Positions 3,184 through 60,745 of a DNA stretch of 64,000 nt are shown here, one piece after another. The DNA lies in the NCBI RefSeq assembly GCF_000355805.1, contig NZ_CM001837.1, positions 656,409-720,408 of the forward strand, in the 5' to 3' direction. Source of the stretch: Dokdonia sp. PRO95. GTDB taxonomy: Bacteria > Bacteroidota > Bacteroidia > Flavobacteriales > Flavobacteriaceae. Position 1 is the first letter of the stretch. The number at the start of each line of letters is the position of its first letter. The position numbers and the translations under genes were made by a program. The notes under the pieces are model-generated. The model had not been told where the DNA came from, did no database searches, and saw only the letters and a list, made by a program, of their open reading frames with translations.

Positions 3184-4194
3184 TTAATACTTACCATAAT
3201 GCTGTCTTATTACAGCTTCGGCTGGTTTATTTTGAGGTGTAAACTGGTTGTTTTCTGGACCTCCTACCTCATCATGTTTTATAAACCATTTCCAGATAAA
3301 TCCTCCTGCCATCCACTCTTCATCCCATACTGTATTAAAGAGAGCTTGCGTCGCTTGTGCCTGTCCTTCAAGATTTACGGTGGTCATAGACCTATCTGCC
3401 TTCCAAGGTTCTTTGCCCGTATAATCTACAGAGCGGTAACCAAATTCTGTAAAAATCACTTTGCGGTTTTCCGCTTTCGCGAAAGCGGACATCTCCTCCT
3501 TCCATCGTTGCCATCCAGCTGTAACACACTCCACAGATGGCGTTTGATCATCACAAACAGGAAAATAAGCATCAATCCCTATGTAGTCTAGTTGGCTCCA
3601 GAATGGGGTTTTCTTATACTCATCCCAGTTTGCAGCATACGTAAGTTTACCATTGTACACCTTTCTTATATCAATAATAAGTTGCGCCCAAAAATCTGGT
3701 CTGTTTGTTACAAATTGCTCTAGCTCTGTACCTATACAAAATATAGCTGCTCCTTCCTCTTGCGCCAGTGTGGCATAATCCATTATAAAATCACGATACG
3801 ATTGCTCAAGTGCCAGCCACTCCTCTTCTGTCTCCATCTTGAGGTAACCAGTAAACTCACCACGACGTATCCATATCTGAGGTTTTACCATTACATCAAT
3901 ATTTGCTTTATGAAGTTCTGACACATAATTGCGACCTCCTTCTCTGGTCTCACCATACCACTGCCTATCTGTATTATAAACAATTTGCGGCTTGTCCATT
4001 TGTGGCACAAACCCAAACGGCATTACCGCAGCATAGTTTGCATTTATACGTTGTACAGGGCTTATATGAGTGCTATCTACCGGATTACGATTTGCAACAA
4101 AACTCACCCCGTTGATTTTCTTTTCTTCTGTTTTTTGAGCGGTACATGCTTGTAGACAAATCAATAAAAAGAAACATCCTATAATATTTTTCAT
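3184..4194 (-). CDS. GH113-like TIM-barrel glycoside hydrolase lipoprotein
   Basis: The 336-residue product starts with a lipoprotein signal (ICLQAC, modified Cys at residue 16). The body resembles GTA/GH113-type TIM barrels that attack beta-mannan-like glycans. Two acids fit the usual clan GH-A positions: the acid/base in CIGTELEQ and the nucleophile in VIFTEFGYRS. Other barrel marks are IGIDAYFP and GGFIWKWF. A genome-wide palindrome (3471-3488) lies in the coding sequence and supplies AFAKA in SAFAKAENRK, between the helix and the strand carrying the nucleophile. The substrate cannot be told from sequence. Neighbours give no polysaccharide locus context. Confidence 0.75.
   Translation of the reverse strand: MKNIIGCFFLLICLQACTAQKTEEKKINGVSFVANRNPVDSTHISPVQRINANYAAVMPFGFVPQMDKPQIVYNTDRQWYGETREGGRNYVSELHKANIDVMVKPQIWIRRGEFTGYLKMETEEEWLALEQSYRDFIMDYATLAQEEGAAIFCIGTELEQFVTNRPDFWAQLIIDIRKVYNGKLTYAANWDEYKKTPFWSQLDYIGIDAYFPVCDDQTPSVECVTAGWQRWKEEMSAFAKAENRKVIFTEFGYRSVDYTGKEPWKADRSMTTVNLEGQAQATQALFNTVWDEEWMAGGFIWKWFIKHDEVGGPENNQFTPQNKPAEAVIRQHYGKY
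3471..3488. repeat. Palindromic element copy 1, inside a CDS
   Basis: 18-bp perfect palindrome CCGCTTTCGCGAAAGCGG inside the GH113-like gene; read on the minus strand it encodes AFAKA. Confidence 0.9.
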
Positions 4195-4371
4195 CTACTT
4201 ATTTTTTGACTTAAAGATATATGTTTATGATTAAAATTTGAAAATCATAGTAGCTATAAGAATTTACGTAAAAGCAATAAGACCCTAAGAGCTGGGTAAC
4301 TCTCAAGGTCTATCATAGTGTGCTGTATACTCATTGTAGTTAACGTAAATAAATATACATTGCACTCGTAA

Positions 4372-4402
4372 AGAGCTTAGATTAGGGGAACCTAAGCGCT
4401 CT
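4372..4402 (-). terminator. Possible terminator of the barrel gene
   Basis: On the minus strand AGAGCGCTTAG pairs with CTAAGCTCT around an 11-base loop, followed by a short T run. It lies just after the stop of the gene at 4412-5302. The stem is imperfect and the T tract short. Confidence 0.35.
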
Positions 4403-4411
4403 AGCTATATG

Positions 4412-5302
4412 TTAAAAAACTGCTCTCAACCCTAGGTTAAAAGTCTGCCCTAATCCAGTATCGTTTCCTCTTACAAAGTTTGTATATAACGCTTCAAGAT
4501 TAAGAGCATCTGTAAGTTGATATTTTGCCCCACCGCCTACAGCTGTAAAGTCTTGTGAGAATTCGTTTCCTAGGTCAAGAAGTTGTGAGTGCTGTACAAG
4601 GCCTAATACTGTAAATTTCGAACTTGGGAAATAACTTAAAAACAATCCAGGAGTAAGACGCAAACTATCATTTGCAAAACTATCCTCATCATCTCCAAAG
4701 TTGAGCTCAGAATTCAAATCTGCAAATAGTTGCCAGTCTCCTCCTGCAAAAGTATGATCAAAGAAAAATCTGTTTTGCCATGTAAATCCTTTTTGATCAA
4801 GAAAAACACCTTCTTCTGTCTCATTATCTACTAGAGGAATAAAAAACGAACTCTGGATAGAGAAGTTATTTACTTTACTAAACGGAACAAACTTTACAGA
4901 TGGTGCAATAGAAGTAAGACCACTACGAGCAGTACCTCGCTCACCATCAAATTTAAAAACATCAAAAGCATCACGACCTCCTATAGTGCTGGATCTGGCC
5001 TCTAGAATCAATCCTACGTTTACTCTATTATTATTTGAAACACCAGTGTACACTTCAAGTGTTGAGGTAAAGAAATTATTTCTTGGGATATCACGATCTT
5101 CACCATTTTCGCCAAAGGTATCTTTTGTTTCTGTGTAAAGATTATTAAACCATTTGATATCAAATTGCCCTTTTGAGATAAGTTTAGAAGGTGTGAGTGT
5201 CTGTATTACAGAGCCTCCGTCTTCAAGGTTTTCTGTATCATCTTGTGCAAAAGAAGTTGCTGCAATAAGCATTAAAGCGACTAGTAGGATTGTTTTTTTC
5301 AT
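4412..5302 (-). CDS. Secreted outer-membrane beta-barrel protein, function unknown
   Basis: This 296-residue product has a clear signal peptide (MKKTILLVALMLIAATSFA, then QDD). The rest is rich in alternating hydrophobic and polar strands with Asn/Asp turns and ends in LGLRAVF with a terminal Phe, typical of a small outer-membrane barrel. I see no catalytic motif. The pattern (SIAPSVKFVPFSKVNNFSIQ, LGLVQHSQLL, VGGGAKYQL) resembles MetA-type phenol-degradation or transporter-like barrels in Bacteroidetes, but I cannot name a family. It stands alone between the GH113-like gene and the DUF547 gene, both on the same strand. Confidence 0.6.
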   Translation of the reverse strand: MKKTILLVALMLIAATSFAQDDTENLEDGGSVIQTLTPSKLISKGQFDIKWFNNLYTETKDTFGENGEDRDIPRNNFFTSTLEVYTGVSNNNRVNVGLILEARSSTIGGRDAFDVFKFDGERGTARSGLTSIAPSVKFVPFSKVNNFSIQSSFFIPLVDNETEEGVFLDQKGFTWQNRFFFDHTFAGGDWQLFADLNSELNFGDDEDSFANDSLRLTPGLFLSYFPSSKFTVLGLVQHSQLLDLGNEFSQDFTAVGGGAKYQLTDALNLEALYTNFVRGNDTGLGQTFNLGLRAVF

Positions 5303-5488
5303 TGTAGTTGTTTTTGATTATTTGTTTGTGCGTCATACACCAGACGGCTAGGGTTTAATACTATCTGGTGAGAACGGCTTTTTAAGTCAATAGTTATCTA
5401 CCTCGACAGGTATCGAGTAGTTGTAGTAGGTAAATTTTAAAGGAGTTATAGCAAGTAATCTATACCAGCTCTAATGTACTAGAAATTA

Positions 5489-6211: not shown

Positions 6212-6461
6212 AAGTAAACTTTTTCTGCACAATCGGTCGAGCTCAAATAAAGAGACTTACAACCAGATCATTAAAAATTTAAAATATGTAGTCTGTAACG
6301 CTCCATAATGAGCATCAAATTTTCCTTACAGCACTTTCTGCATTTAGATAAATTCTAAATAGACAGCATCCCGTTAAGTTTGTTATCTTTAAAACGACCC
6401 AAGGATATGTTATCTCATAGAAACAAGTTTTAATATGCTTGTTTAGACTACTATATATTTT

Positions 6462-6474
6462 GCTTTCGCGAAAG
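6462..6474. repeat. Palindromic element copy 2 (right arm degenerate)
   Basis: GCTTTCGCGAAAG core with the right arm changed to GGG. It lies 106 bases before the oxidoreductase start and is paired with copy 3, 29 bases away. Confidence 0.75.
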
Positions 6475-6490
6475 GGTAACAAAAAGATTT

Positions 6491-6503
6491 TTTCGCGAAA
6501 GCG
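6491..6503. repeat. Palindromic element copy 3 (left arm degenerate)
   Basis: TTTCGCGAAAGCG with the left arm replaced by T residues. It mirrors copy 2: one keeps the left arm, the other the right. Confidence 0.75.
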
Positions 6504-9564: not shown

Positions 9565-9573
9565 CTATTTTAT

Positions 9574-9594
9574 TACGCTTTCGCGAAAATGTGA
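9574..9594. repeat. Palindromic element copy 4 (ATGTGA variant)
   Basis: TACGCTTTCGCGAAAATGTGA-type copy just after the polyferredoxin stop. Nineteen bases from CGCTTT to TGTGA are identical to copy 21, after asnS. Confidence 0.8.
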
Positions 9595-15508: not shown

Positions 15509-15528
15509 TACGCTTTCGCGAAAGCGTA
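15509..15528. repeat. Palindromic element copy 5 (full 20 bp)
   Basis: Perfect TACGCTTTCGCGAAAGCGTA in the gap between the PepSY and DinB-like genes. Confidence 0.95.
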
Positions 15529-17492: not shown

Positions 17493-17512
17493 TACGCTTT
17501 CGCGAAAGCGTA
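17493..17512. repeat. Palindromic element copy 6 (full 20 bp)
   Basis: Perfect 20-bp copy between accB and accC, so within a likely operon. Confidence 0.95.
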
Positions 17513-20091: not shown

Positions 20092-21174
20092 TTACCTCTT
20101 TGCAGGCGGCCTACCTGACCGCTCTCTACCAGGACGTCTAGGAGACACTCTAAGAACATCCTTTGTAATCTCTTTATATTCCTTCCTTTTATTAAAAATT
20201 TTTACCGCCGAAAAAACAGCTTCTCTAAAAGAACCTTCATCTGCCGTAGATTTTCCAGCAATCTCGTAAGCAGTTCCATGATCTGGAGAAGTACGAATTT
20301 TATCTAACCCCGCAGTATAATTTACCCCTTTACCAAAAGACAAGGTCTTAAACGGGATTAATCCCTGATCGTGATAAGCAGCAAGAATAGCATCAAAATT
20401 TTTATAGTTACCTGACCCAAAGAAACTATCTGCTGCATACGGCCCATAGACTAACTGACCACTTGCTCGCATTTTTTCAAGTGTAGGTATCAACACTTTA
20501 TCATCATCATCCCCTATCACTCCATTATCACCCACATGAGGATTAATACCTAGCAGTGCAATTTTAGGCCTATCTACTCCAAAATCCTGCTTTAAAGCAC
20601 TATATAATGTATTTACTTTCTTTACAATCACCTCTGGCGTGATCTCACTAGCAACATCTTTTACAGCTACATGATCAGTAAGTAAGCCTACCTTGAGCGT
20701 ATCTGTAATCATAAGCATCATTGCATCTCCCTCTAACTCTTGAGCTAGATAATCTGTGTGACCTGGGAATGCAAAATCTTCTTTCTGAATATTAGCTTTA
20801 TTAATAGGAGCAGTAACAAGCACGTCTATATCTCCGTTTTTAAGTGCCTTAGTAGCTTCCATAAAAGATTTCAAAGCATAATCGCCTGCTGTATCGGTCG
20901 CCTCGCCCCACTTAATCTCTACAGGCTCCTTCCATAAATGAAAGACATTTATTTTATTATCTAACGCTTTCGCGAAAGCGTCTATTCCATGAAACTCCCC
21001 CTGCAACTTCAAAGACTTCTTGATATAAGAAAGCGTCTTTGCCGAAGCAAAAATGATAGGAGTACAAAAATCAAACATCATCACCTCTGAAAATGTCTTT
21101 ATCACAACCTCTGCCCCTATTCCATTTAAATCTCCAATAGAAATCCCTACACGTACTTTTTGATCTTTATTCAT
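20092..21174 (-). CDS. pdxA: 4-hydroxythreonine-4-phosphate dehydrogenase
   Basis: This 360-residue enzyme oxidises 4-phosphohydroxy-threonine with NAD in vitamin B6 synthesis. Metal-binding His are visible in FPGHTDYLA, LLTDHVAVKD and AAYHDQGLIPFK; the N terminus VGISIGDLNGIG and LLGINPHVGDNG are family marks. A palindromic element copy (20964-20981) lies in frame and supplies AFAKA in GIDAFAKALDNK, in a variable surface region. The C terminus has a basic Pro/Arg/Gly-rich tail (SPRRPGRERSGRPPAKR) beyond the normal fold. The gene diverges from ribE. Confidence 0.95.
   Translation of the reverse strand: MNKDQKVRVGISIGDLNGIGAEVVIKTFSEVMMFDFCTPIIFASAKTLSYIKKSLKLQGEFHGIDAFAKALDNKINVFHLWKEPVEIKWGEATDTAGDYALKSFMEATKALKNGDIDVLVTAPINKANIQKEDFAFPGHTDYLAQELEGDAMMLMITDTLKVGLLTDHVAVKDVASEITPEVIVKKVNTLYSALKQDFGVDRPKIALLGINPHVGDNGVIGDDDDKVLIPTLEKMRASGQLVYGPYAADSFFGSGNYKNFDAILAAYHDQGLIPFKTLSFGKGVNYTAGLDKIRTSPDHGTAYEIAGKSTADEGSFREAVFSAVKIFNKRKEYKEITKDVLRVSPRRPGRERSGRPPAKR
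20964..20981. repeat. Palindromic element copy 7, inside pdxA
   Basis: 18-bp perfect palindrome ACGCTTTCGCGAAAGCGT; on the minus strand it encodes AFAKA in PdxA. Confidence 0.95.
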
Positions 21175-22890: not shown

Positions 22891-22907
22891 GCTTTCGCGA
22901 AAGCGTA
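22891..22907. repeat. Palindromic element copy 8
   Basis: GCTTTCGCGAAAGC core with the right arm GTA kept, between mce and rbfA. Confidence 0.88.
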
Positions 22908-25648: not shown

Positions 25649-25668
25649 ACGCTTTCGCAAAAGCGTAA
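25649..25668. repeat. Palindromic element copy 9 (one mismatch)
   Basis: TACGCTTTCGCAAAAGCGTA, a 20-bp copy with one G-to-A change in the centre, upstream of dusB. Confidence 0.88.
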
Positions 25669-30204: not shown

Positions 30205-30919
30205 ATAGCCTACTTAAAAGTGCTTTTATTTTGGAAACATTAGAGGTTTGAAGTAAGTTATTTTCATGACCTGCTAGCGAGTGCATTTTTATAACATGAT
30301 TATACCCAAGCGTGCTACTACTTAAACTACCATGCACTTCGCTAAAACCTTCCTTCTTAAATTTCATAACATTATCAATAGAGATTCCTCCGCCAGGTAA
30401 AATAACTATACGATTTCTAGCCGCAGCTTGTAATTCCAACAAGGTTTTATAACCTCCATTCACATTAGCATTCCTTCCAGCGGTTAGCACCCTAGTAGCA
30501 CCTATATTTATGAGTAGCTCTAATGCTTCAAAAACATCGGGCGTCCAATCAAAAGCTCGATGAAAGGTGAAAGGTAGTTCGCCACATTCAGCTATAAGTT
30601 GTTTAGTCCTCTCCGCGTCTATTGTAAAGTCTCTATTTAATATCCCAGAAACTATTCCTTGAGCACCTTGCGCTTTCGCGAAAGCGATATCTCGCGACAT
30701 CACATCAAATTCGGCTTCCGAGTACATAAAATCTCCAGATCTTGGTCTTATAAGCACAAACACAGGAATCTCAAGTTCTTGCAGTACCTTCTCTATCAAA
30801 CCATGACTAGGAGTAATCCCTCCAAGCGAGAGCTCTTGACATAACTCAATACGGTGCGCACCTGCATCTTGAGCAGCCAGCGCACTCTCAAAGGAATTTG
30901 CACAGATTTCTAATTTCAT
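30203..30919 (-). CDS. cutC: CutC family protein
   Basis: A 238-residue TIM-barrel protein with CutC marks: MKLEICANSFESALAAQDAGAHRIELC, GGITPSHGLIE, VFVLIRPRSGDFMYSE, FHRAFD and LPGGGIS. The family was named for copper homeostasis, but a direct copper role is disputed. In Bacteroidetes it is often found beside glycan genes, as here beside GH92 and glycosylasparaginase, so a sugar-related role is possible (inference). A palindromic element copy (30671-30686) is in frame and gives AFAKA in RDIAFAKAQGAQG, replacing a variable helix end. Confidence 0.9.
   Translation of the reverse strand: MKLEICANSFESALAAQDAGAHRIELCQELSLGGITPSHGLIEKVLQELEIPVFVLIRPRSGDFMYSEAEFDVMSRDIAFAKAQGAQGIVSGILNRDFTIDAERTKQLIAECGELPFTFHRAFDWTPDVFEALELLINIGATRVLTAGRNANVNGGYKTLLELQAAARNRIVILPGGGISIDNVMKFKKEGFSEVHGSLSSSTLGYNHVIKMHSLAGHENNLLQTSNVSKIKALLSRL
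30671..30686. repeat. Palindromic element copy 10, inside cutC
   Basis: 16-bp palindrome CGCTTTCGCGAAAGCG; on the minus strand it encodes AFAKA. Confidence 0.93.
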
Positions 30920-31021: not shown

Positions 31022-33964
31022 ATGCGCTACCTTATCTCATTTTTTCTGCTCCTTTTTTTAATTTGTAGTTGCGAGCATATTACAGAGGTTACTCCCGCTC
31101 AAAAAGATCAAGACCTCATAAGCTATGTGAATCCATTTATTGGCACCGGTGGTCACGGTCATACCTACCCTGGGGCGACTATGCCTTTTGGCATGATGCA
31201 ACTTAGCCCAGACACACGATTAGATGGTTGGGACGGCTGTTCTGGGTATCACTATGATGATGAGTTTATCTACGGCTTTAGCCATACACACTTAAGCGGA
31301 ACGGGAGTTTCTGACTATGGAGATATTTTGCTCATGCCTTCTACTTCCATAATGTTTAATAATGGTGCAGATGGAAAACCTGGTTATCGAGATCATTTTA
31401 CGCATGACACTGAAGTAGCACAACCAGGATATTACAGCGTACATCTAGACAACTCAAATATAGACGTAGCGCTTACTGTAGCTGCTCGTAGCGGTGTGCA
31501 TAAGTACGCTTTCGCGAAAGCGGACTCTTTAAAAAACTTTGTGATTTTAGATCTTGAGCACCGTGATGAAGTACTGAGCACTAAAATAGACACACTTTCT
31601 AGCACAGAACTCTCGGGACACAGACATTCCAAAGCTTGGGCTAGCAACCAAAAGCTGTTTTATTACATCAAAACATCACACAGTTTCAAATATCTAAAAC
31701 AACCTGAAGGGACGAAGAACGGCGCTACATCACACAAAGCTGCATTGCAGTTTGACAATCCCAAGAATGAAGAAATAATTATAAAAATAGGAATATCTGC
31801 CGTAGATGAAGCTGGGGCGAGAAAAAACCTAGAAACCGAAATAGGAAACAAAACCTTTGACCAAGTAAAGCAAGATGCACAAAGCACTTGGGAAAGTCAG
31901 CTAGAAAAAATTGTTGTAGAAAGTGAAAACTCAGATTACAAAACTAATTTTTACACTTCGCTATACCACACCATGCTCGCGCCTAATCTTTATCAAGATG
32001 TAGATGGCCGCTACCGAGGGATGGATCTAGAAATTCACAAAACAGACGCTTTTGATTACTATACAGTTTTCTCATTGTGGGATACGTATCGCGCAGCGCA
32101 TCCCTTATATACCATCATAGAAGAAGAACGTACTAACGACTTTATAAACACCTTTCTTGCTAAATATGAGGAAGGCGGCATTATGCCTATTTGGGATCTA
32201 GCTGGCAACTATACTGGCTGTATGATAGGCTACCATGCAGTGCCCGTAATCGCAGATGCCTACCTAAAAGGAATACGTGATTACGATACAGATAAAGCTT
32301 TTGAAGCGATGCTTCATAGTGGCTCGCAAGACAAACTTGGCCTTGCTTCTTACAAGAAGTACGGTTTTATACCCGCAAATGACGAAGCAGAGTCTGTGTC
32401 AAAGACACTAGAATATGCTTATGATGACTGGACCATCGCTCAAATGGCTCAAGAGATGGGTAATGAAGAGATCTATCAAGAATTTACAAAGCGCGCACAG
32501 TCTTATAAAAATGTATATGATCCTTCGTCTGGTTTTATGAGAGGTCGCATGCGCAACACATGGTTCTCCCCTTTTGATCCGTTTGAAGTAAATTTTAATT
32601 ATACAGAAGCAAATGCCTGGCAATATAGTCTCTATGCACCTCAAGACATAAGTGGTCTTATTCACTTGTCTGGAGGAAACAAGGCTTTTGAAAGAAAACT
32701 AGACACACTATTTACAGCAGAGACTACAACTTCTGGTCGTCACCAGCAAGATATCACAGGATTGATAGGTCAATATGCACATGGCAATGAACCTAGTCAT
32801 CACATGGCATATTTATACAACTACATCCAAAAGCCTTGGAAAACTCAAAAGCGTGTACACGAGATCCTTACTACATTATACACCAATTCTCCAGATGGAA
32901 TTTCTGGTAACGAAGATTGTGGTCAAATGAGCGCGTGGTACGTTCTAAGCTCTTTAGGCTTTTATCCTGTAACCCCAGGAAGTAATGAATATGTTATTGG
33001 TACTCCTTTATTTGATAAGGCAACTATACGTTTAGAAAATGGCAATAGTTTTACCATTGTTGCAGAAAACCTCTCTGAAGAAAATATACATATAGAAAGT
33101 GCCTTTATGGATGATAAGGCTTACCCATACTCGTACTTGAAGCATAAAGATATTATGGATGGCGGCGAACTCATTTTTAATATGGCGGCCTCTCATTCCC
33201 GATGGGCTAAACACCCTGCTCACAGTCCCAAAACGAGTATTATAGACAATAAATTTACTGCAGCACCCTTCATAGCAAAAGGAGAAGCCAACTTTAAAAA
33301 AGCGACCGAAATCACACTCGCTACCACAGATAAAAATGCGGATATTTTTTACGCATTAGAAGAAGATGGCAACAATTTTAAAAAGTATAGAAAACCTTTT
33401 AAAGTCAAAAATCATAATACGTTGCGCACCTACGCAAAGGGTCGTCATGGACAAAGTGCTACCATTGAGTCACCATTGTTTAAAATAAATGAGAACTATA
33501 GCCTCACACTAGACGCTACCTACGCAAATGCTTATAACGCTGGCGGAAATAATGCATTGATAGATGGTGTGAGGGGAGTAAAAGAATTCCGTTCAGGCAC
33601 ATGGCAGGGTTATAATGCTCAAGATGTAGTAGCTACGCTAGACTTAGGTAAAGCACAAAGCATAAGCAGTATTGAAACTGCATTTTTACAAGATCAACGC
33701 AGCTGGATTTTCTATCCTACAGAAGTAACATTACTTACATCTCTGGACGGCGAAAATTTTGAAGTCTATCACCAAGAGCAGATTGATGCTGCTGCTCCCG
33801 ATGAGAATATTGCAATTAAAAATATAACTGGTGAAAAGCAAGCTACACAAGGGCGCTTTATAAAACTTATTGCAAAGACCTTAGGAGATCTTCCAGAGTG
33901 GCATTTAGGCTTCCCACATAGAGGAAAGAGCTGGGTATTTATAGACGAGATTGTAGTGCAGTAA
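31022..33964 (+). CDS. GH92 alpha-mannosidase lipoprotein with a C-terminal F5/8-type (CBM32-like) domain
   Basis: The ATG at 31022 opens a lipoprotein signal (MRYLISFFLLLFLICSC, modified Cys at 17), giving 980 residues; the longer frame from 30983 adds 13 hydrophilic residues. The GH92 body starts at DLISYVNPFIGTGGHGHTYPGATMPFGMMQLSPD. Other GH92 blocks are SLWDTYRAAHPLYTI and GISGNEDCGQMSAWYVLSSLGFYPVTPG, which contains catalytic-region acids. GH92 enzymes are calcium-dependent exo-alpha-mannosidases acting on N-glycan mannose. The C-terminal part (about 830-980) has a discoidin-like sugar-binding fold. An in-frame palindromic element gives KYAFAKADSL. It is ten bases upstream of a sulfurtransferase gene. 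Confidence 0.92.
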   Translation: MRYLISFFLLLFLICSCEHITEVTPAQKDQDLISYVNPFIGTGGHGHTYPGATMPFGMMQLSPDTRLDGWDGCSGYHYDDEFIYGFSHTHLSGTGVSDYGDILLMPSTSIMFNNGADGKPGYRDHFTHDTEVAQPGYYSVHLDNSNIDVALTVAARSGVHKYAFAKADSLKNFVILDLEHRDEVLSTKIDTLSSTELSGHRHSKAWASNQKLFYYIKTSHSFKYLKQPEGTKNGATSHKAALQFDNPKNEEIIIKIGISAVDEAGARKNLETEIGNKTFDQVKQDAQSTWESQLEKIVVESENSDYKTNFYTSLYHTMLAPNLYQDVDGRYRGMDLEIHKTDAFDYYTVFSLWDTYRAAHPLYTIIEEERTNDFINTFLAKYEEGGIMPIWDLAGNYTGCMIGYHAVPVIADAYLKGIRDYDTDKAFEAMLHSGSQDKLGLASYKKYGFIPANDEAESVSKTLEYAYDDWTIAQMAQEMGNEEIYQEFTKRAQSYKNVYDPSSGFMRGRMRNTWFSPFDPFEVNFNYTEANAWQYSLYAPQDISGLIHLSGGNKAFERKLDTLFTAETTTSGRHQQDITGLIGQYAHGNEPSHHMAYLYNYIQKPWKTQKRVHEILTTLYTNSPDGISGNEDCGQMSAWYVLSSLGFYPVTPGSNEYVIGTPLFDKATIRLENGNSFTIVAENLSEENIHIESAFMDDKAYPYSYLKHKDIMDGGELIFNMAASHSRWAKHPAHSPKTSIIDNKFTAAPFIAKGEANFKKATEITLATTDKNADIFYALEEDGNNFKKYRKPFKVKNHNTLRTYAKGRHGQSATIESPLFKINENYSLTLDATYANAYNAGGNNALIDGVRGVKEFRSGTWQGYNAQDVVATLDLGKAQSISSIETAFLQDQRSWIFYPTEVTLLTSLDGENFEVYHQEQIDAAAPDENIAIKNITGEKQATQGRFIKLIAKTLGDLPEWHLGFPHRGKSWVFIDEIVVQ
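31505..31522. repeat. Palindromic element copy 11, inside the GH92 gene
   Basis: TACGCTTTCGCGAAAGCG in frame, encoding YAFAKA at about residue 162. Confidence 0.95.
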
Positions 33965-34799: not shown

Positions 34800-35828
34800 A
34801 TGAACAGAAGAAAATTCATAAATAAGTCCGTAGTTGCGGGAGCTGGTATTGCTACAGGAGCAAGCTTGATGGCATGCAATGACCTCAGCACAGAAAATAG
34901 GAAGAAAGATGATAACGCTTTCGCGAAAGCGAAAAATGAAAACATTATAAAACCATCTCCCATTGCCATTTGCACCTGGGGCTTTTCTGGAGCAACAGCA
35001 AAAGCTGGCGAACTCTTACACAATGGTGTTTCAGCACTCGATGCAATTATAGCAGGCGTTGCTGTGGAAGAAGAAAATATTAAAAATACAACTGTAGGTA
35101 TAGGAGCCACACCAGACAGAGATGGTAATGTAACGCTAGATGCCTGCGTAATGAATTCTGATGGAGACTGTGGAGCTGTGCTTGCAGTTGAAAATATTGT
35201 CAATGTCGCTGCCTTAGCCCGCAAAGTTATGGAAGAAACGCCGCACGTAATATTAGCAGGAAAAGGCGCCGAAGAATTTGCTTATGAGCAGGGGTTCACG
35301 AAACAAAAACTACTCACCGAAGAACGCAAAGAAGCTTGGAAAGAATGGCTAAAAACTAGTAATTACAAACCTGAAATTAACATAGAGAATCACGACACCA
35401 TAGGGATGCTAGCAATAGATAGCAATGGAGATATTGCAGGTGCATGTACTACATCTGGATTAGGTTATAAAATGAAAGGGCGCGTAGGAGATTCTCCAAT
35501 TATAGGTTCTGGTCTTTTTATAGACAATGAAGTGGGCGGTGCCGTAGCGACAGGAATGGGAGAAGAAGTACTCAAGACAGTTGGGAGTTTTTTAATTGTA
35601 GAGTTAATGCGTTCCGGGATGTCACCACAGGCTGCCTGCGAGGAAGCAATCCATAGAATCACAAAGAAAGGTCCTCGTTATAAAGATTTTCAAATTGCAT
35701 ATATCGCTATGAATAAATCTGGCGAAACTGGCAGTCATTGTATTCACGAAGGATTTACCATGATGAAATATCAAAATAAAAAAAATGAAAATATTTTATC
35801 TTCATTTTACGACACAAAAAATAGTTAG
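34800..35828 (+). CDS. N4-(beta-N-acetylglucosaminyl)-L-asparaginase (glycosylasparaginase)
   Basis: A 342-residue Ntn-hydrolase. The N terminus has a Tat-like, lipoprotein-type signal (MNRRKFINKS, then LMAC), suggesting export of the folded proenzyme and lipid anchoring. The autocleavage site is NHDTIGM: the bond before Thr is cut and Thr becomes the nucleophile. Other marks are DACVMNSDGDCGAV and ATGMGEEVLK. It hydrolyses the GlcNAc-Asn bond left after protein and glycan removal, matching the neighbouring GH92 mannosidase. An in-frame palindromic element lies just after the signal and gives NAFAKAKNEN, in a linker. Confidence 0.9.
   Translation: MNRRKFINKSVVAGAGIATGASLMACNDLSTENRKKDDNAFAKAKNENIIKPSPIAICTWGFSGATAKAGELLHNGVSALDAIIAGVAVEEENIKNTTVGIGATPDRDGNVTLDACVMNSDGDCGAVLAVENIVNVAALARKVMEETPHVILAGKGAEEFAYEQGFTKQKLLTEERKEAWKEWLKTSNYKPEINIENHDTIGMLAIDSNGDIAGACTTSGLGYKMKGRVGDSPIIGSGLFIDNEVGGAVATGMGEEVLKTVGSFLIVELMRSGMSPQAACEEAIHRITKKGPRYKDFQIAYIAMNKSGETGSHCIHEGFTMMKYQNKKNENILSSFYDTKNS
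34916..34931. repeat. Palindromic element copy 12, inside the glycosylasparaginase gene
   Basis: CGCTTTCGCGAAAGCG in frame, encoding AFAKA in the linker after the signal. Confidence 0.95.
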
Positions 35829-36725: not shown

Positions 36726-36745
36726 TACGCTTTCGCGAAAGCGTA
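36726..36745. repeat. Palindromic element copy 13 (full 20 bp)
   Basis: Perfect 20-bp copy 17 bases before the preferred polA start. If translation began at the upstream TTG (36709) it would be read as LSRKR, a different phase from the five genuine in-gene copies. Confidence 0.95.
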
Positions 36746-41750: not shown

Positions 41751-41764
41751 GCTTTCGCGAAAGC
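41751..41764. repeat. Palindromic element copy 14
   Basis: GCTTTCGCGAAAGC 14-bp core, between a lipoprotein gene start and the terminator of the gene upstream. Confidence 0.88.
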
Positions 41765-45569: not shown

Positions 45570-45588
45570 TACGCTTTCGCGAAAGCGT
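45570..45588. repeat. Palindromic element copy 15
   Basis: TACGCTTTCGCGAAAGCGT followed by G, so 19 of 20 bases, in the gap upstream of rplM. Confidence 0.93.
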
Positions 45589-46708: not shown

Positions 46709-46722
46709 GCTTTCGCGAAAGC
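46709..46722. repeat. Palindromic element copy 16
   Basis: GCTTTCGCGAAAGC core in the rpsI-rpsB gap. Confidence 0.9.
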
Positions 46723-46811
46723 GGAGTCTAATAAGGTTAGTTTAGCATCTAAACTTCGTGAACTCGGAGTTGCTAATTTTAATGTCCAACGGAACGTAAA
46801 CTATTACAAAA

Positions 46812-51516: not shown

Positions 51517-51532
51517 CGCTTTCGCGAAAGCG
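51517..51532. repeat. Palindromic element copy 17
   Basis: CGCTTTCGCGAAAGCG next to the right boundary of the islet, 22 bases before the duplicated tsf end. Confidence 0.92.
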
Positions 51533-51627: not shown

Positions 51628-51643
51628 AGGTCTTTAAAGAAGA

Positions 51644-52156: not shown

Positions 52157-52353
52157 TGTATGTTGTTTTTGTGATTACTACCCCAAAATTATAATGAGTA
52201 TGACACAAACCAATATCACTTCACCCTTAAAACAAAGCATCAAAACACTTTAAATCAACAGATTAAAACCCTACAACAGCTTCCTAAACAAAACGAATTT
52301 TCAATCACAATCAAGTTAATTGAACTTGAGAAGATATCTGTTTTACAAAAGCC

Positions 52354-52369
52354 CGCTTTCGCGAAAGCG
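52354..52369. repeat. Palindromic element copy 18
   Basis: CGCTTTCGCGAAAGCG upstream of the pyrH -7 box. Confidence 0.92.
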
Positions 52370-52414
52370 TAAAAAACCATTGCCACACATTTTTAAATCA
52401 TTCTGTTTAAATAG

Positions 52415-52422
52415 TATATTTG
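52415..52422 (+). promoter_or_regulatory. -7 element of the pyrH promoter
   Basis: TATATTTG, 16 bases before the pyrH ATG. No good TTG at the standard distance. Confidence 0.45.
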
Positions 52423-52438
52423 CATAACTACACAGACT

Positions 52439-53143
52439 ATGAAATATAAAAGAATATTACTTAAACTTTCTGGTGAGGCCTTAATGGGAGATCGCCAGTA
52501 CGGAATAGATCCAAACCGTCTTGCCGAATATGCAGAAGACATTAAAGCAGTAACAGAAAAGGGTGTTGAAGTTGCTATTGTTATAGGTGGCGGAAATATC
52601 TTTAGAGGTGTAGCGGGAGCTAGCAAAGGAATGGATCGCGTACAAAGTGATCACATGGGAATGCTTGCCACTGTAATAAATGGCCTAGCTCTACAAGACG
52701 CGCTAGAACAAGCAGACGTAAAAACAAGACTACAAACAGCGGTGAAGATTAATGAAGTAGCCGAGCCTTTTATACGCCGTAAAGCGATGGCTCACCTTAA
52801 AAAGGGACGTGTTGTCATTTTTGGGGCAGGTACAGGTAATCCATACTTTACTACAGACTCTGCCGCAGTACTAAGAGCGATCGAAGTAGAAGCAGATGTA
52901 ATTTTAAAGGGAACGAGAGTAGATGGTATTTATAACTCAGATCCTGAGAAAAATACAGATGCTATTAAGTATGATCATATCTCTTTTGACGATGTGTTAC
53001 GTAAAGGCTTAAAAGTGATGGACACTACGGCGTTTACACTAAGTCAAGAAAATGAGTTACCTATTATTGTTTTTGATATGAATACTCGTGGCAACTTGAT
53101 GAAAGTGGTCTCTGGTGATGCGATAGGTACTACCGTAAACTAA
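52439..53143 (+). CDS. pyrH: Uridylate kinase
   Basis: A 234-residue amino-acid-kinase-fold enzyme that makes UDP from [17 protein letters not shown] (phosphate loop), [23 protein letters not shown] and [11 protein letters not shown] are diagnostic. It is followed 53 bases later by frr, the common pyrH-frr order; tsf, its usual upstream partner, is 3.8 kb away because of the islet. Confidence 0.97.
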
Positions 53144-53196
53144 CGTCAAGAGAATTGGCTCAATTTTTGTAAACTTGCTATCATAATTATATTACC

Positions 53197-53754
53197 ATGA
53201 ACGAAGATTTAAAATTTATAGTAGATACTGCCAAAGAAGCAATGGATGATGCCATTGTACACTTAGCAAAACGATTACTTACCATACGTGCAGGAAAAGC
53301 AAGCCCAGCAATGCTACAAGGTTTAATGGTAAACTATTACGGGAGCCCTACGCCTTTGAGCCAAGTGGCAAATGTAAACACTCCAGATGGTCGCACAATA
53401 ACTGTACAGCCGTGGGAGAAAAGCTTAATGCAAGAGATTGAAAAAGCTATTATAAATGCAAACTTAGGTTTTAACCCTATGAATAATGGGGAAAACATTA
53501 TCATTAACGTTCCGCCACTTACAGAGGAAAGACGTAAAGATCTTGTAAAACAAGCTCGCTCAGAAGCAGAAGACTCAAAGGTAGGTGTGCGTAATGACCG
53601 TAAAAATGCCAATAACGATATCAAAAAAGTAGATGACGCCTCTGAAGATGAAAAGGCAAATGCAGAAGTAGATATCCAGAAGCTTACAGATATTCATATC
53701 AAGAAGATAGAAGAAGTCTTAAGTAAGAAAGAAGAAGAGATTATGACTGTATAA
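53197..53754 (+). CDS. frr: Ribosome recycling factor
   Basis: A 185-residue L-shaped protein that splits post-termination ribosomes with EF-G. RAGKASPAMLQGLMVNYYGSPTPLSQVANV, LTEERRKDLVKQ and VRNDRKNANNDIKK are family marks. Length is normal. A perfect terminator follows, closing pyrH-frr. Confidence 0.97.
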   Translation: MNEDLKFIVDTAKEAMDDAIVHLAKRLLTIRAGKASPAMLQGLMVNYYGSPTPLSQVANVNTPDGRTITVQPWEKSLMQEIEKAIINANLGFNPMNNGENIIINVPPLTEERRKDLVKQARSEAEDSKVGVRNDRKNANNDIKKVDDASEDEKANAEVDIQKLTDIHIKKIEEVLSKKEEEIMTV

Positions 53755-53777
53755 TACTACAGACGTTAAACAATTAT

Positions 53778-53806
53778 AAAAAAGCGACCATGTGGTCGCT
53801 TTTTTA
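53778..53806 (+). terminator. Intrinsic terminator of frr
   Basis: AAAAAAGCGACCA pairs with TGGTCGCTTTTTT around a two-base turn. Confidence 0.92.
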
Positions 53807-53831
53807 ATACATTTACCTTTCAACCTACCCT

Positions 53832-55952: not shown

Positions 55953-56000
55953 TAAACTTATCGTAATCTCATTCAATTTACTGAACCTAGGTTAATTTTT

Positions 56001-56020
56001 TACGCTTTCGCGAAAGCGTA
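56001..56020. repeat. Palindromic element copy 19 (full 20 bp)
   Basis: Perfect 20-bp copy between the DUF5686 and MMPL genes. Confidence 0.95.
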
Positions 56021-56076
56021 ACCCCTACCACCTACAAGCCTTTGTCAATTTACCCGCATATCTGCATCCAAAAGAA

Positions 56077-56084
56077 TATCTTTG
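56077..56084 (+). promoter_or_regulatory. -7 element of the MMPL transporter gene
   Basis: TATCTTTG, 18 bases before the ATG. No TTG at the standard distance. Confidence 0.4.
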
Positions 56085-56102
56085 CGGTGCTAAAACAAGT
56101 CA

Positions 56103-58511
56103 ATGGCAAAATTTCTGAGTAAAGGTTTTTGGGAGTCTGTAGCGAGTTTAATACTACGCAATCGTCCTTTGATTCTCATTCTTATTGTGGGTTTCACCAT
56201 TTTCTTAGGTTTCCAATGGCGCAATATGCGCTTTACCTATACAGAGGCAAACTTACTTCCTGACGACCATGAAGTAAATCTAGAATACCAGAATTTTAAA
56301 GATAAGTTTGGTGAGGAGGGGAACCTCATTGTGTTAGGAATACAAGACGAACGTCTTTTTACTCCTGAGGTACTTACCGCTTGGAATGACTTATCTACCA
56401 AGATTGCAAAGGCAGATGCTGTTGCATTATCCCTTTCTCTTAAAGATCTCAAGATATTAGACAAACAAGAAAATCCGCAGCGATTTGATCTTGTTCCCTT
56501 CATGACAGATAGCACGCTCACTGCCGAAAGTGCTGCTAGTTATAGAAAATTACTCTTTGACGATTTACCATTTTATGAAAATCTGATTTACAATAAAGAG
56601 ACAGGTACCGTACGCTCTGCGGTATACCTTAAGAAAGATTTAATCAACACTCCTGCGCGTTTAGATTTTGTAGTAAATGATCTTATGCCAGCGATCGCGA
56701 CTTTTGAAAAAGATTACGACATCGATGTGCGCACCAGTGGGATGCCATACATACGAACGCTCAATGCTCAAAATATTATTGATGAGATAGGCATTTTTGT
56801 AGGTGCAGCATTACTAGTTACTTCTTTTATATTTTTCTTTTTCTTTAGATCATACAGAGCCACCTTTATCTCCATGATTACGGTAATCATAGGTGTGATG
56901 TGGGCTTTTGGGTTCTTAGGATTACTTGGGTATGAGATTACAGTACTTACAGCTATTATCCCACCGCTTATTATTGTGATTGGGATTCCTAACTGTATTT
57001 TCTTAATTAATAAGTACCAGCAAGAGTATAAAAATCACGGTAACCAAGTAAAAGCATTACAGCGTGTTATTACCAAAGTAGGTAATGCAACCTTAATGAC
57101 TAACATTACGACAGCTTCTGGATTTGCTACGTTTATTCTTACTGAGAGTTCGCTGCTAAGCGAGTTCGGTGTGGTTGCAAGTATCAATATCATTGCTATA
57201 TTTTTACTTAGCTTACTTATCATTCCTATCATTTACAGTTACATGTCGCCTCCTAAGGAGAAGCACCTTAAACACCTAGGTAAAACTTGGATAGAAGGGT
57301 TTGTAAACTGGATGGAGCGCATGGTACGCACTAGACGCACTGCAATTTATGCCTCTAGTGTATTATTACTTGCTTTGAGTATTATAGGTATTTATCAAAT
57401 ACGCATATCTGGTTCGCTCATAGAAGACATGCCTAAAAAAGCCGACTTCTATAAAGACATAAAGTTTTTTGAGGAAGAATTTGATGGGATTATGCCATTA
57501 GAAATTCTAATTGACACTAAGAAAAAACAAGGAGTCATGAAGCTTGCCACCCTTAAACGCATGGAAGAGCTAAGCGCTACCATAGAGGAGCAACCAGAAC
57601 TCTCTGCACCTATATCTATAGTAAATCTTGTAAAGTATGCAAAGCAAGCCTACTTTAATGGAAATCCTAAATACTACCAACTTCCTACCAGCAACGAGCG
57701 CAATTTTATACTGCCGTATGCAAAGAGTTTTGATAATGATGAGAACCTCATGGGAGCCTACGTAGATAGTACGGGTCAATATGCCAGAATCACCACTTTC
57801 ATGAAAGATGTAGGTACTGACAAGATGGAACGTGCTGAAGAAAATATTCAATTAAAAATAGACAAACTCTTCCCTGAAGAACGCTATGAGGTTACCATGA
57901 CAGGTACTGCACTCGTTTTTCAAAAAGGAACAGATTACCTCGTAATGAACCTTGTGATAAGTCTATCACTTGCCATCTTACTTATCGCGCTATTCATGGC
58001 GTGGATGTTCAAGTCGCTACGTATGATTATAGTGTCTCTCATCCCTAATTTATTACCACTACTAGTTACGGCGGGTATGATGGGCTTTATAGGCATCCCT
58101 ATCAAGCCATCTACAATACTTGTTTTTAGTATTGCCTTTGGGATCTCTGTAGATGACACAATTCACTTTCTTGCCAAATACCGTCAGGAGCTAAAAGCTA
58201 ATAAATGGAAGATCAAAAAATCTGTTTACGGTTCGCTACGTGAGACAGGTGTAAGCATGTTTTACACCTCAATTGTATTATTCTTTGGCTTCTCTGTGTT
58301 CATGATTAGTAGCTTTGGAGGAACTGTAGCACTAGGTGGTCTTGTAAGCGCAACACTTCTCTTTGCAATGCTAGCAAACCTTTTACTATTACCATCACTG
58401 TTGTTATCTCTAGAAAAAGAGATTGCAAATAAAGACACCTTTAAAGAACCTGCACTACAAATTGTGGAACGTGAGGGTGATGAAGAAACTGCTGATAAAG
58501 AGCTTGAGTAA
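56103..58511 (+). CDS. MMPL/RND-family inner membrane transporter
   Basis: An 802-residue protein with the duplicated RND plan: helix 1 (about 20-38), a periplasmic domain (about 40-220), helices 2-6 (about 225-380), helix 7 (about 410-430), a second periplasmic domain, and helices 8-12 (about 620-775). The central helix of the second half carries FSIAFGISVDDTIHFLAKYRQE, with Asp residues expected to carry protons, and the first half carries PPLIIVIGIPNCIFLINKYQQE in the same position, where the Asp pair is replaced by Asn and Cys. The family exports lipids, hopanoids or other hydrophobic molecules. The cargo here is unknown. Confidence 0.87.
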   Translation: MAKFLSKGFWESVASLILRNRPLILILIVGFTIFLGFQWRNMRFTYTEANLLPDDHEVNLEYQNFKDKFGEEGNLIVLGIQDERLFTPEVLTAWNDLSTKIAKADAVALSLSLKDLKILDKQENPQRFDLVPFMTDSTLTAESAASYRKLLFDDLPFYENLIYNKETGTVRSAVYLKKDLINTPARLDFVVNDLMPAIATFEKDYDIDVRTSGMPYIRTLNAQNIIDEIGIFVGAALLVTSFIFFFFFRSYRATFISMITVIIGVMWAFGFLGLLGYEITVLTAIIPPLIIVIGIPNCIFLINKYQQEYKNHGNQVKALQRVITKVGNATLMTNITTASGFATFILTESSLLSEFGVVASINIIAIFLLSLLIIPIIYSYMSPPKEKHLKHLGKTWIEGFVNWMERMVRTRRTAIYASSVLLLALSIIGIYQIRISGSLIEDMPKKADFYKDIKFFEEEFDGIMPLEILIDTKKKQGVMKLATLKRMEELSATIEEQPELSAPISIVNLVKYAKQAYFNGNPKYYQLPTSNERNFILPYAKSFDNDENLMGAYVDSTGQYARITTFMKDVGTDKMERAEENIQLKIDKLFPEERYEVTMTGTALVFQKGTDYLVMNLVISLSLAILLIALFMAWMFKSLRMIIVSLIPNLLPLLVTAGMMGFIGIPIKPSTILVFSIAFGISVDDTIHFLAKYRQELKANKWKIKKSVYGSLRETGVSMFYTSIVLFFGFSVFMISSFGGTVALGGLVSATLLFAMLANLLLLPSLLLSLEKEIANKDTFKEPALQIVEREGDEETADKELE

Positions 58512-58546
58512 CTAGGCATTCCCTTTGTATCTTTATACAAAAAGGC

Positions 58547-59092
58547 ATGACAGATCAGTATTTTAAAAAAGCACAAGACGAGTTACAACTTGGCGTCAAC
58601 AAAAAGGGACACCCGTTTAGGTACACCACTATGGGAACGGTAGATGCTTCTGGAGTTCCTGCACTAAGAACTGTTGTACTAAGACAGGTTACAGACGATT
58701 TTAAACTGAGAATTTATACTGACAGTAGATCCAATAAAATTGCTCAGTTACTCCAAAATGATGTTACTAGCTTGCTCTTTTACCATCCTAAAAAATTGCT
58801 GCAGATTAAAATTACAGGAAACGCTTCCATCATTACAGACCCCGTAGAGCTGCAACGCTATTACAGCGGCGTGCAGCCCTCATCAAAAAAAGATTACACT
58901 ACCACTGATGCTCCTGGATCAGAGATTTCAAACCCAGATGTGGTAGACTACCTTGAGAACACGCATTATTTTACTATTATTGAGATTGCACCTACACATT
59001 TAGAGTTTCTTCAGCTTAAGAGACCTAACCACATTAGAGCGAGTTTTAGACTTGAAGATGGAACATGGAACGGGCAGTTCTTAAACCCTTAA
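58547..59092 (+). CDS. Pyridoxamine 5'-phosphate oxidase-like flavoprotein
   Basis: A 181-residue split-barrel FMN-binding protein. Marks are PFRYTTMGTVDASGVPALRTVVLRQV, IYTDSRSNKIAQLLQN, LLFYHPKKLLQIKITG and a C-terminal AS FRLEDGTWNGQFLNP-type end where true PdxH has the substrate-binding RxxRF. It is shorter than PdxH (about 215 residues) and closer to the Alr4036-type FMN-binding group. It may act on pyridoxamine phosphate or another reductant; I do not assign pdxH. The start is 36 bases after the transporter stop. Confidence 0.8.
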   Translation: MTDQYFKKAQDELQLGVNKKGHPFRYTTMGTVDASGVPALRTVVLRQVTDDFKLRIYTDSRSNKIAQLLQNDVTSLLFYHPKKLLQIKITGNASIITDPVELQRYYSGVQPSSKKDYTTTDAPGSEISNPDVVDYLENTHYFTIIEIAPTHLEFLQLKRPNHIRASFRLEDGTWNGQFLNP

Positions 59093-59095
59093 GGG

Positions 59096-59115
59096 TACGC
59101 TTTCGCGAAAGCGTA
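59096..59115. repeat. Palindromic element copy 20 (full 20 bp)
   Basis: Perfect 20-bp copy beginning four bases after the stop of the flavoprotein gene. Confidence 0.95.
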
Positions 59116-59226
59116 AAAACCTTTTTTACACCTCAACTTGAGCACTGCTGCAAATCTCAATAAAGAGTAATGCGCCTTAGCGTATATTTCAGTCTATTTA
59201 CCCCTTACCCTACCACAAAAATCTTT

Positions 59227-59234
59227 TATATTTG
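59227..59234 (+). promoter_or_regulatory. -7 element of the asnS promoter
   Basis: TATATTTG, 35 bases before the asnS ATG. The expected TTG is not clear. Confidence 0.45.
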
Positions 59235-59269
59235 CCCTCTATCTAGAGAATTCATTTAAATAAGATACA

Positions 59270-60712
59270 ATGACACATACGCCTATTATAGCGCTACTCG
59301 AAAGTGACAAAATTCATCAAGAATTTACGGTAAAAGGATGGGTAAGATCCTTCCGCGGAAACCAGTTTATCGCACTTAATGATGGTTCTACTATTAATAA
59401 CCTTCAGTGTGTAGTCGATTTTGAAAATACAGACGAAGCACTTTTAAAGCGTATCACAACAGGTGCTGCCGTTGCCATAAAAGGAACCTTAGAAGAAAGT
59501 CAAGGTAGTGGGCAACGCATAGAAATAAAAGTAAAAGATATCCAGATTGAGGGCGATGCAGATCCTCAAGAATTAAAAAATACGATACTCTCTCCTAAGC
59601 GTCACACACTAGAAAAATTACGTGAGCAGGCACACTTAAGAGTTCGCACCAACACCTTTGGCGCTGTAATGCGTTTACGCTCAAAGTTATCGTTTGCCAT
59701 ACATGAGTATTTTAATAAAAACGGCTACTTCCATGCACATACGCCTATCATTACTGGTAGTGATGCAGAGGGAGCTGGTGAGATGTTTCGCGTAAGCGCG
59801 CTTGACCCAGAAAATCCGCCGCGCACAGAAGATGGAAAGATTGATTACAGCAAGGACTTTTTTGGCAAAGAGACTAACCTTACGGTTTCTGGACAGCTAG
59901 AAGGAGAGACGTATGCATTAGGACTTGGGAAGATTTACACCTTTGGACCTACCTTTAGAGCAGAAAATAGTAACACTTCTCGTCACCTTGCAGAATTCTG
60001 GATGGTAGAACCAGAGATGGCTTTTTGTGATCTAGATGGAAACATGGATCTTGCCGAAGATTTTATCAAGTACGTAATTAACTACGCACTAGAAAACTGT
60101 CAAGATGATCTTGAATTTCTAGAAAACAGATTAATTCAAGAAGATAAAAGCAAGCCACAAGCAGATCGTGCGCCTATGGCACTACGCGAGAAGCTGAGCT
60201 TTATAGTAGACAACAACTTCAAGCGTGTAAGCTATACGGAGGCAATTGACATCTTACGTAATAGTAAGCCTAATAAGAAGAAAAAGTTCAAATACCCTAT
60301 TAATGAATGGGGAGCAGATTTACAGTCTGAGCATGAGCGTTACCTTGTAGAAAAGCACTTTAACTGCCCAGTAATCTTATTTGATTACCCAGCAAACATC
60401 AAGGCATTTTATATGCGTCTTAACGAAGATGGTAAGACCGTACGCGCGATGGATGTACTTTTCCCTGGAATAGGTGAGATGGTAGGAGGATCACAGCGTG
60501 AGGAGCGTCTAGATGTTCTTAAGGAGAAAATGGCTGCACTTGATATTTCTGAGGAGGAGCTTTCTTGGTACCTAGATACTCGCAAGTTTGGAACATGTAC
60601 ACATAGTGGTTTTGGTCTTGGTTTTGAGCGCCTTGTGCTATTTGTAACGGGAATGACAAACATACGTGACGTAATACCTTACCCACGTTTCCCTGGTCAC
60701 GCAGAGTTTTAG
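59270..60712 (+). CDS. asnS: Asparaginyl-tRNA synthetase
   Basis: A 480-residue class IIb synthetase of typical length. An OB-fold anticodon domain (about 15-110; VKGWVRSFRGNQFIALNDGST) precedes the catalytic core: motif 1 region HTPIITGSDAEGAGEMFRV, motif 2 FRAENSNTSRHLAEFWMVEPE, motif 3 GFGLGFERLVLFVTGMTNIRDVIPYPR. Charging of Asn directly is thus encoded. A palindromic element variant and a terminator follow. Confidence 0.97.
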   Translation: MTHTPIIALLESDKIHQEFTVKGWVRSFRGNQFIALNDGSTINNLQCVVDFENTDEALLKRITTGAAVAIKGTLEESQGSGQRIEIKVKDIQIEGDADPQELKNTILSPKRHTLEKLREQAHLRVRTNTFGAVMRLRSKLSFAIHEYFNKNGYFHAHTPIITGSDAEGAGEMFRVSALDPENPPRTEDGKIDYSKDFFGKETNLTVSGQLEGETYALGLGKIYTFGPTFRAENSNTSRHLAEFWMVEPEMAFCDLDGNMDLAEDFIKYVINYALENCQDDLEFLENRLIQEDKSKPQADRAPMALREKLSFIVDNNFKRVSYTEAIDILRNSKPNKKKKFKYPINEWGADLQSEHERYLVEKHFNCPVILFDYPANIKAFYMRLNEDGKTVRAMDVLFPGIGEMVGGSQREERLDVLKEKMAALDISEEELSWYLDTRKFGTCTHSGFGLGFERLVLFVTGMTNIRDVIPYPRFPGHAEF

Positions 60713-60726
60713 AAAATACTTTCTTT

Positions 60727-60745
60727 CGCTTTCGCGAAAATGTGA
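60727..60745. repeat. Palindromic element copy 21 (ATGTGA variant)
   Basis: CGCTTTCGCGAAAATGTGA, identical for 19 bases to copy 4 after the polyferredoxin gene; both lie just after a stop codon. Confidence 0.85.

Follow-up and report, generated by a model that had tools for sequence, protein, structure and literature searches.

An abundant, evenly spaced palindrome in Dokdonia genomes as a putative DNA-level recognition site

The 64,000-bp stretch analysed here (the window; C1:656409-720408 of the 3,305,093-base single-contig genome of Dokdonia sp. PRO95, G000) carries many copies of a 14-bp palindrome, GCTTTCGCGAAAGC. The view that this palindrome is a selected, non-mobile site recognized at the level of DNA is well supported, and it is most likely the binding site of a putative dimeric protein. 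Our favoured reading, to which we give a probability of roughly 0.37, is that it is a double-stranded DNA recognition site for a symmetric dimeric protein and serves chromosome organisation; DNA-uptake tagging is nearly tied with it, as a close second. We know of few bacterial words of 14–20 bp with hundreds of copies and so little decay. The first-pass annotation of this DNA knew of no published name for the element, and we found no description of it in the open-access literature either (among the titles listed, an incomplete set, none was on the element).

The window holds 16 exact matches to GCTTTCGCGAAAGC, or 18 when one mismatch is allowed, and 100 dinucleotide shuffles gave a mean of 0.01 matches at one mismatch or fewer. 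Genome-wide, GCTTTCGCGAAAGC occurs 794 times in 3.305 Mb and its reversed control word not at all; a first-order Markov model expects 0.0077 genome copies. The near-zero chance expectation of the first-pass annotation is thereby borne out, and the genome count that it had proposed lies far above random. Each of its 21 positions holds the palindrome or a close variant: 16 are exact 14-mers, two have one mismatch (6462 and 25651), and three have the centre plus one canonical arm (centres at 6491, 9579 and 60730), retaining the 10-bp centre TTTCGCGAAA. The full 20-mer is present exactly five times, as had been stated (15509, 17493, 36726, 56001 and 59096).

A larger sample of the same genome (864 kb, made up of the window and 40 other stretches) contained 261 TTTCGCGAAA centres, 206 14-mers, 156 16-mers and 51 20-mers, with the symmetric consensus TTACGCTTTCGCGAAAGCGTAA and weaker flanks. 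The 14-bp palindrome was perfect at 206/261 sites, and one-mismatch 14-mers numbered 22 against the 206 exact ones. The words CGCTTTCGC and GCGAAAGCG were located at a palindrome in 403 of 416 cases. At least one canonical GC arm was present at every site (261/261); 55 sites had only one, the other arm leaning to ATGTGA. Beyond the arms, flanks of 20–25 bp show a symmetric skew, G/T on the left and A/C on the right, with C scarce at the left and G scarce at the right over about 20 bp, and this skew is equal on both sides irrespective of gene direction. Arm letters did not covary, arm mismatches were uncompensated, and pairing beyond the arms was, if anything, slightly under the shuffled level. 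Symmetry and uncoupled arms are compatible with binding by a putative dimer.

Per kb, the palindrome shows a roughly tenfold preference for intergenic DNA (1.3–2.0 copies per kb, compared with 0.15 in coding sequence). By count, up to 113 of 260 sites lie within open reading frames (ORFs), which cover 89% of the sample; this is an upper figure, since our simple caller takes the longest ORF and some 'coding' sites are really leaders. The earlier statement that the copies lie mainly between genes holds as a density. Four of nine coding calls in the window (6464, 6491, 36731 and 45575) are doubtful: they fall within a short ORF or within N-terminal extensions and could be intergenic. The ORF-internal sites are read in all frames, 61 as AFAKA, 33 as LSRK and 19 as FRES. 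Many copies lie 4–15 bp past stop codons; among gap types, those between convergent genes hold a copy most often (0.40 per gap). Such positions would suit an RNA element, that is, a 3'-end hairpin acting as terminator or mRNA stabiliser; the 16-mer can make a 6-pair stem, and of the seven sites in 44001-62000 three fit a loosely defined terminator on one strand. However, the absence of arm covariation makes a folded hairpin unlikely, many sites are inside ORFs, the flank skew stays symmetric even within genes, where transcription runs one way, and downstream flanks are on average A- and C-rich where a terminator would have a T-run. We consequently disfavour the RNA reading and regard it as very improbable.

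The spacing of about 3 kb noted at first is confirmed by a mean of 2,987 bp over 220 neighbour pairs in 864 kb. Compared to a gene-architecture null (2,000 simulations), the sites are markedly more even: neighbours closer than 1 kb numbered 22/220 against 56.9 under the null, those closer than 500 bp numbered 7 against 23.8, and the coefficient of variation of neighbour distances was 0.60 against 0.895. Counts per 20 kb had a variance of 2.85 against 5.66, and 0.4% of the 2,000 simulations were as low. The probability of the next site grows with distance. In Nonlabens 1/39 neighbours lay within 1 kb, and in a genome of a further genus (G207) 3/25, a small sample, both figures being given without a null. 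Density along the chromosome is roughly level, at 53, 72, 57 and 59 sites per quarter in the 40 stretches. Against origin and terminus, a plot that the first-pass annotation had proposed, these sampled stretches showed no clear density bias, the positions of both landmarks being uncertain.

Sites are conserved in place across the genus. In 18 Dokdonia polA regions the exact 14-mer was kept in 446 of 598 pairwise comparisons and, where flank identity was below 0.8, in 324 of 455 pairs, with about 4 expected; control 14-mers 60 bp away were kept in 21/753. These pair counts come from related, non-independent genomes and the palindrome may anchor the local alignment, so that the figures overstate certainty. 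For the window sites, 69 of 126 site-by-relative cells were alignable in six relatives, and the centre was present in the relative in 63/69, a figure that includes two cells for 25653, at which the decayed copy is that of the window itself; the remaining 57 cells were unalignable or beyond the stretches compared and were left uncounted. Retention was 12/13 in G001, at flank identities of 0.53–0.88, and 4/7 in G017, the most distant relative. Among the 152 differing polA comparisons 124 were ungapped, as with GTTTTCGCGCAAGC in place of GCTTTCGCGAAAGC, and 20 still held the centre; inserted stretches within a site occurred in G003 and G009.

These data bear on whether the copies could be a mobile palindrome, of the repetitive extragenic palindromic (REP) type or another kind, spread by copying. 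High copy number and intergenic bias would fit, and REP elements are likewise repeated palindromes, often past stop codons. In contrast to REP elements, the Dokdonia copies are orthologous over the genus, are gained and lost mostly without gaps rather than as inserted units, and in many cases lie in ORFs. The mobile option of the first-pass annotation thus finds no support; we reject a mobile element and consider this explanation scarcely tenable. The proposal of a selected signal, on the other hand, is strongly supported by copy number, scarce one-mismatch forms, orthologous conservation and even spacing.

The window copies are listed below, with conservation scored as presence of the centre in alignable stretches of six relatives. 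No strand is given; the description of copies as lying on either strand is meaningless for a perfect palindrome.

3472..3487: 16-bp CGC-core-GCG copy in a GH113-like ORF, AFAKA reading; centre retained in G004, G006, G001 and G007, gone in G017.
6461..6476: copy with an altered arm, placed in either the leader or an N-terminal extension of a pyridine nucleotide-disulphide oxidoreductase ORF; retained in both alignable relatives, G004 and G006.
6488..6503: asymmetric copy with one canonical arm, 27 bp from the neighbouring copy; retained in G004 and G006.
9576..9591: asymmetric copy 11 bp past the stop of a 4Fe-4S protein gene, whose Nonlabens homologue likewise has a copy just past its stop; retained in G004 and G006.
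15509..15528: full 20-mer in the gap separating two co-directional ORFs; alignable in 0/6 relatives.
17493..17512: full 20-mer in the gap between ORFs 16096-17448 (biotin carboxylase) and 17555-18043, the matching gap in Nonlabens also holding a copy; retained in 5/5 alignable relatives.
20965..20980: copy in a pdxA-like ORF, AFAKA reading; retained in 4/5 alignable relatives.
22891..22906: copy between divergent ORFs; retained in 5/5 alignable relatives.
25650..25665: decayed copy, centre TTTCGCAAAA; intact centre at this place in G004 and G006.
30671..30686: copy in a cutC-like ORF, AFAKA reading; retained in 2/5 alignable relatives, with ungapped alternatives in G016, G008 and G001.
31507..31522: copy in a GH92 ORF, AFAKA reading; retained in 3/3 alignable relatives, at flank identity down to 0.69.
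34916..34931: copy in an asparaginase-2-like ORF, AFAKA reading; retained in 3/3 alignable relatives.
36726..36745: full 20-mer at the polA start or immediately before it; retained in 6/6 relatives, lost in G014.
41751..41764: 14-bp core copy between co-directional ORFs; retained in the sole alignable relative, G006.
45572..45587: copy upstream of a DUF5916 gene; retained in 4/4 alignable relatives.
46709..46724: copy upstream of rpsB; retained in 5/6 relatives, also lost in G003.
51517..51532: copy lying between co-directional ORFs and fitting a loose terminator pattern on the - strand; retained in the sole alignable relative, G004.
52354..52369: copy lying between divergent ORFs and fitting a loose terminator pattern on the - strand; retained in 2/2 alignable relatives.
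56001..56020: full 20-mer after a DUF5686 gene and before an MMPL gene; retained in 4/4 alignable relatives.
59096..59115: full 20-mer 3 bp past the stop of a pyridoxamine-oxidase-like gene; retained in 3/3 alignable relatives.
60727..60742: asymmetric copy that follows the stop codon of a class II tRNA synthetase gene and fits a loose terminator pattern on the - strand; retained in 3/3 alignable relatives.

Two of the lost copies differ in kind. Upstream of the rpsB orthologue of G003 (L139) the palindrome is split by an insertion of about 24 bases. At the site of G014 (L140) orthologous to window position 36731 the lost copy reads GCTTTTGTAAAAGC, with C-to-T type substitutions in both arms, and looks as if it had decayed at CpG.

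All 18 Dokdonia genomes searched hold 369–905 copies. Among 397 Flavobacteriaceae genomes, six were rich (G000, G003, G027, G258, G410 and G207, with 408–857 copies), 74 had 1–19 copies and 317 had none; beyond Dokdonia, the rich genomes belong only to Nonlabens (genus g11, including G258) and to the one further genus of G207. These counts make the comparison with related genera that had been suggested at first. In a phylum-wide sample of 395 genomes queried with CGCTTTCGCGAAA, only G000 was rich. Across 80 named polA loci the centre occurred four times in one Dokdonia, six and five times in two Nonlabens and once in a fourth locus, with none in the other 76. G207 groups with Leeuwenhoekiella on polA, and on the polA tree the carriers require three changes, of which at least two are forced. 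Outer arms vary by genus: Dokdonia has ACGC, Nonlabens mainly CCGC or TCGC, and those of G207 are weaker. Between genera, Nonlabens gave 3 orthologous matches against 1.05 expected (fraction 0.088) and G207 gave 2 against 0.50 (fraction 0.079), the best single case being AFAKA at the same codon of a thiamine pyrophosphate (TPP) enzyme in G207 and the window genome; these matches are only suggestive of a deep orthology of sites.

Small clusters of copies also occur in other genera. Ten stretches (L122-L131) from seven family genomes are related islands by BLAST; the one annotated island carries copper/heavy-metal resistance genes (a CusA-like pump, a multicopper oxidase and metal P-type ATPases), and a pair of copies 933 bp apart recurs in five genomes (G118, G095, G104, G231 and G177). 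We rejected the islands as the source of the element: horizontal transfer carries copies into genera otherwise poor in them.

The first-pass annotation had also raised methylation. C5 methylases (PF00145) were found in 6/13 palindrome-rich and 6/11 palindrome-poor genomes. A C5 methylase was therefore rejected as a shared partner, being not found in 7 of 13 carriers; the methylation option is weakened for this class alone, N6 and N4 methylases lying outside the search. This result also weighs on a likeness to HIP1, an iterated palindrome that would be maintained via an orphan DNA methyltransferase. HIP1, GCGATCGC, is a frequent palindrome of cyanobacteria, and the accessible part of PMC4390886 presents it as perfectly palindromic, of high genome-wide frequency and of unsettled function. 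The Dokdonia element is similarly palindromic, CpG-rich and very frequent, and C-to-T type substitutions mark some of its lost sites, GCTTTTGTAAAAGC among them. However, it spans 16–22 bp rather than the 8 bp of HIP1, has few one-mismatch forms and lacks a general C5 methylase link; its own copies are evenly spaced. We consider a HIP1-like element improbable. An 18-nt palindrome of Caldithrix abyssi is, as far as the available text of PMC5317091 goes, likewise uniformly spread, conserved, rare between divergent genes and of unsettled role; it differs in having 38 exact copies of another sequence, in being essentially intergenic and in its strand-specific centre.

The strongest competitor is a DNA uptake sequence, a tag of self-DNA preferred in natural transformation, which molecular drive (biased uptake and recombination) would cause to accumulate and persist. 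The uptake signal sequences (USS) of Haemophilus and the DNA uptake sequences (DUS) of Neisseria show high copy number, even spacing (citing Karlin et al.), intergenic preference and a weaker flank consensus, according to the part of PMC1939737 available. The palindrome shares each of these, with coding copies tolerated, and the overrepresentation with even spacing required of uptake sequences is found here. Its outer arms form genus dialects (TTACGC in Dokdonia, TTCCGC-like in Nonlabens), as DUS are described to do in the accessible portion of PMC3630211. Like USS and DUS, the element thus numbers hundreds of near-perfect copies that are evenly spaced, biased towards intergenic DNA and flanked by a weaker consensus; it also has arm dialects and is carried by temperate-phage-like DNA, described below. 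A competent organism treated as a member of the Flavobacteriaceae, Riemerella columbina, prefers its own DNA in the available part of PMC7965970. ComEC was present in 24/24 genomes tested; being universal there, it is uninformative on the distribution of the palindrome and does not discriminate.

Other features argue against uptake. USS and DUS are asymmetric, and PMC1939737, in its accessible part, treats them as not palindromic, whereas the Dokdonia element is longer and symmetric at most sites. The type IV pilus/type II secretion system (T2SS) ATPase (PF00437 over the cut-off) was found in only 4/13 rich genomes and 6/25 poor ones; it was not found in the window genome or, overall, in 9/13 carriers. 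It was rejected as a partner, as it does not follow the palindrome. One-mismatch forms are scarcer than we would expect from drive alone, and no report of natural transformation in Dokdonia was found in the open-access literature. Uptake tagging is, in our judgement, a real possibility of lower probability than the favoured reading. If the element is an uptake tag, it is a palindromic one whose hosts mostly have no recognisable pilus ATPase.

Copies also occur in phage-like contigs. Among the viral-contig matches listed, many are single and probably due to chance. We selected 16 records on the strength of multiple copies, extended arms or a composition like that of flavobacteria; some of these overlap or are related, and their hosts are not established. 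They hold 1–8 copies each and 59 in their 398.8 kb. With one copy every 6.8 kb, the records are roughly half as dense as Dokdonia, where centres come every 3.3 kb, or Nonlabens, where they come every 4.1 kb. An integrase was found in 6/16, and structural phage genes in all three stretches scanned. As a yardstick for uptake, the temperate phage HP1 holds 17 USS cores in 32 kb. Two phages of Nonlabens (P12024S and P12024L) have no copy in 35.7 kb each, where about nine would be expected at Nonlabens density; closely alike in gene order, they count almost as one. We take both to be lytic from the lack of an annotated integrase, the records stating no lifestyle; the annotation of each includes recombination genes and methyltransferases encoded by the phage itself. 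A 30-base consensus query of named plasmids and phages gave only high-E, chance-like matches.

This pattern could reflect a Chi-like mark, read by recombination or degradation machinery so as to spare or repair resident DNA. The even genome-wide spread agrees with such a mark, as do copies in phage-like contigs and their absence from phages equipped with recombination genes and methyltransferases of their own. Known Chi sites, however, are short (5–8 nt), asymmetric and read as single strands, and the palindrome-free phages are two similar ones of one host, a very small sample. We think a Chi-like role doubtful at best. More broadly, we tentatively propose that Dokdonia, Nonlabens and the Leeuwenhoekiella relative share a chromosome-wide self-DNA mark of 400–900 perfect palindromes, evenly spaced and position-conserved, with a putative dimeric reader, that host-dwelling phages may have adopted the mark and lytic ones not, and that arms and reader may have diverged into genus dialects.

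Returning to chromosome organisation, the symmetry of the palindrome, its two-sided flank and the fact that most carriers are without the pilus ATPase together favour an intracellular dimer. A candidate sequence-specific dimeric protein would bind the palindrome about every 3 kb round the chromosome, one subunit presumably reading each half-site, and the skewed flanks of 20–25 bp might belong to a larger complex. Anchored at these regularly spaced sites, such a protein could fold resident DNA, divide it into domains or mark it. The sites bound by ParB/Noc (parS/Noc), MatP (matS) and SlmA are likewise dyad-symmetric, dimer-read and spread over the chromosome. Our palindrome differs in having roughly ten times more copies than any such site set known to us, in carriers without a second ParB and in the absence of a depleted chromosome quarter.

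Several observations weigh against a chromosome-organising role. We know of no protein that binds the palindrome, nor of a chromosome-organising protein whose exact 16-bp sites approach 1,000. For ParB/Noc, the single anchor-protein family covered, the ParB_N match was one in each of 13/13 palindrome-rich genomes and 1–3 in 19 others; with no extra copy in 13 carriers, a Noc-like ParB paralogue was rejected as the reader. None of ParB, C5 methylase, pilus ATPase and ComEC accounts for the distribution of the palindrome. No copies were present in the Leeuwenhoekiella and Aquimarina polA loci, and the entire G161 genome, which shares an identical polA with L. polynyae, has 9. Finally, even spacing, intergenic preference, dialects and carriage by temperate phages are equally typical of uptake sequences and fit them equally well. 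If the palindrome does organise the chromosome, it would be the densest specific anchor set known to us. The element is a ready probe for finding its putative reader protein, and related genera with and without it are a natural experiment.

Some minor observations concern the viral contigs and other repeats. In three viral records (G415, G418 and G426) the palindrome lies about 55 bp from an integrase match. A separate, unrelated group of viral contigs (L170, L184, L189 and L237) has in common the context GAAGAAACTAGCTTTCGCGAAAGCAACAC around a single copy, with near forms in L158 and L230; this context is apparently a conserved site of their own. The second commonest 12-bp palindrome in the 864-kb sample is CTTTTGCAAAAG, with 5 copies. 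Another perfect 16-bp palindrome, CCTCCTTCGAAGGAGG, occurs at 60946-60961 and 61193-61208, 247 bp apart, and a related word, CCTCTTCGAAGAGG, has four copies in the same sample.

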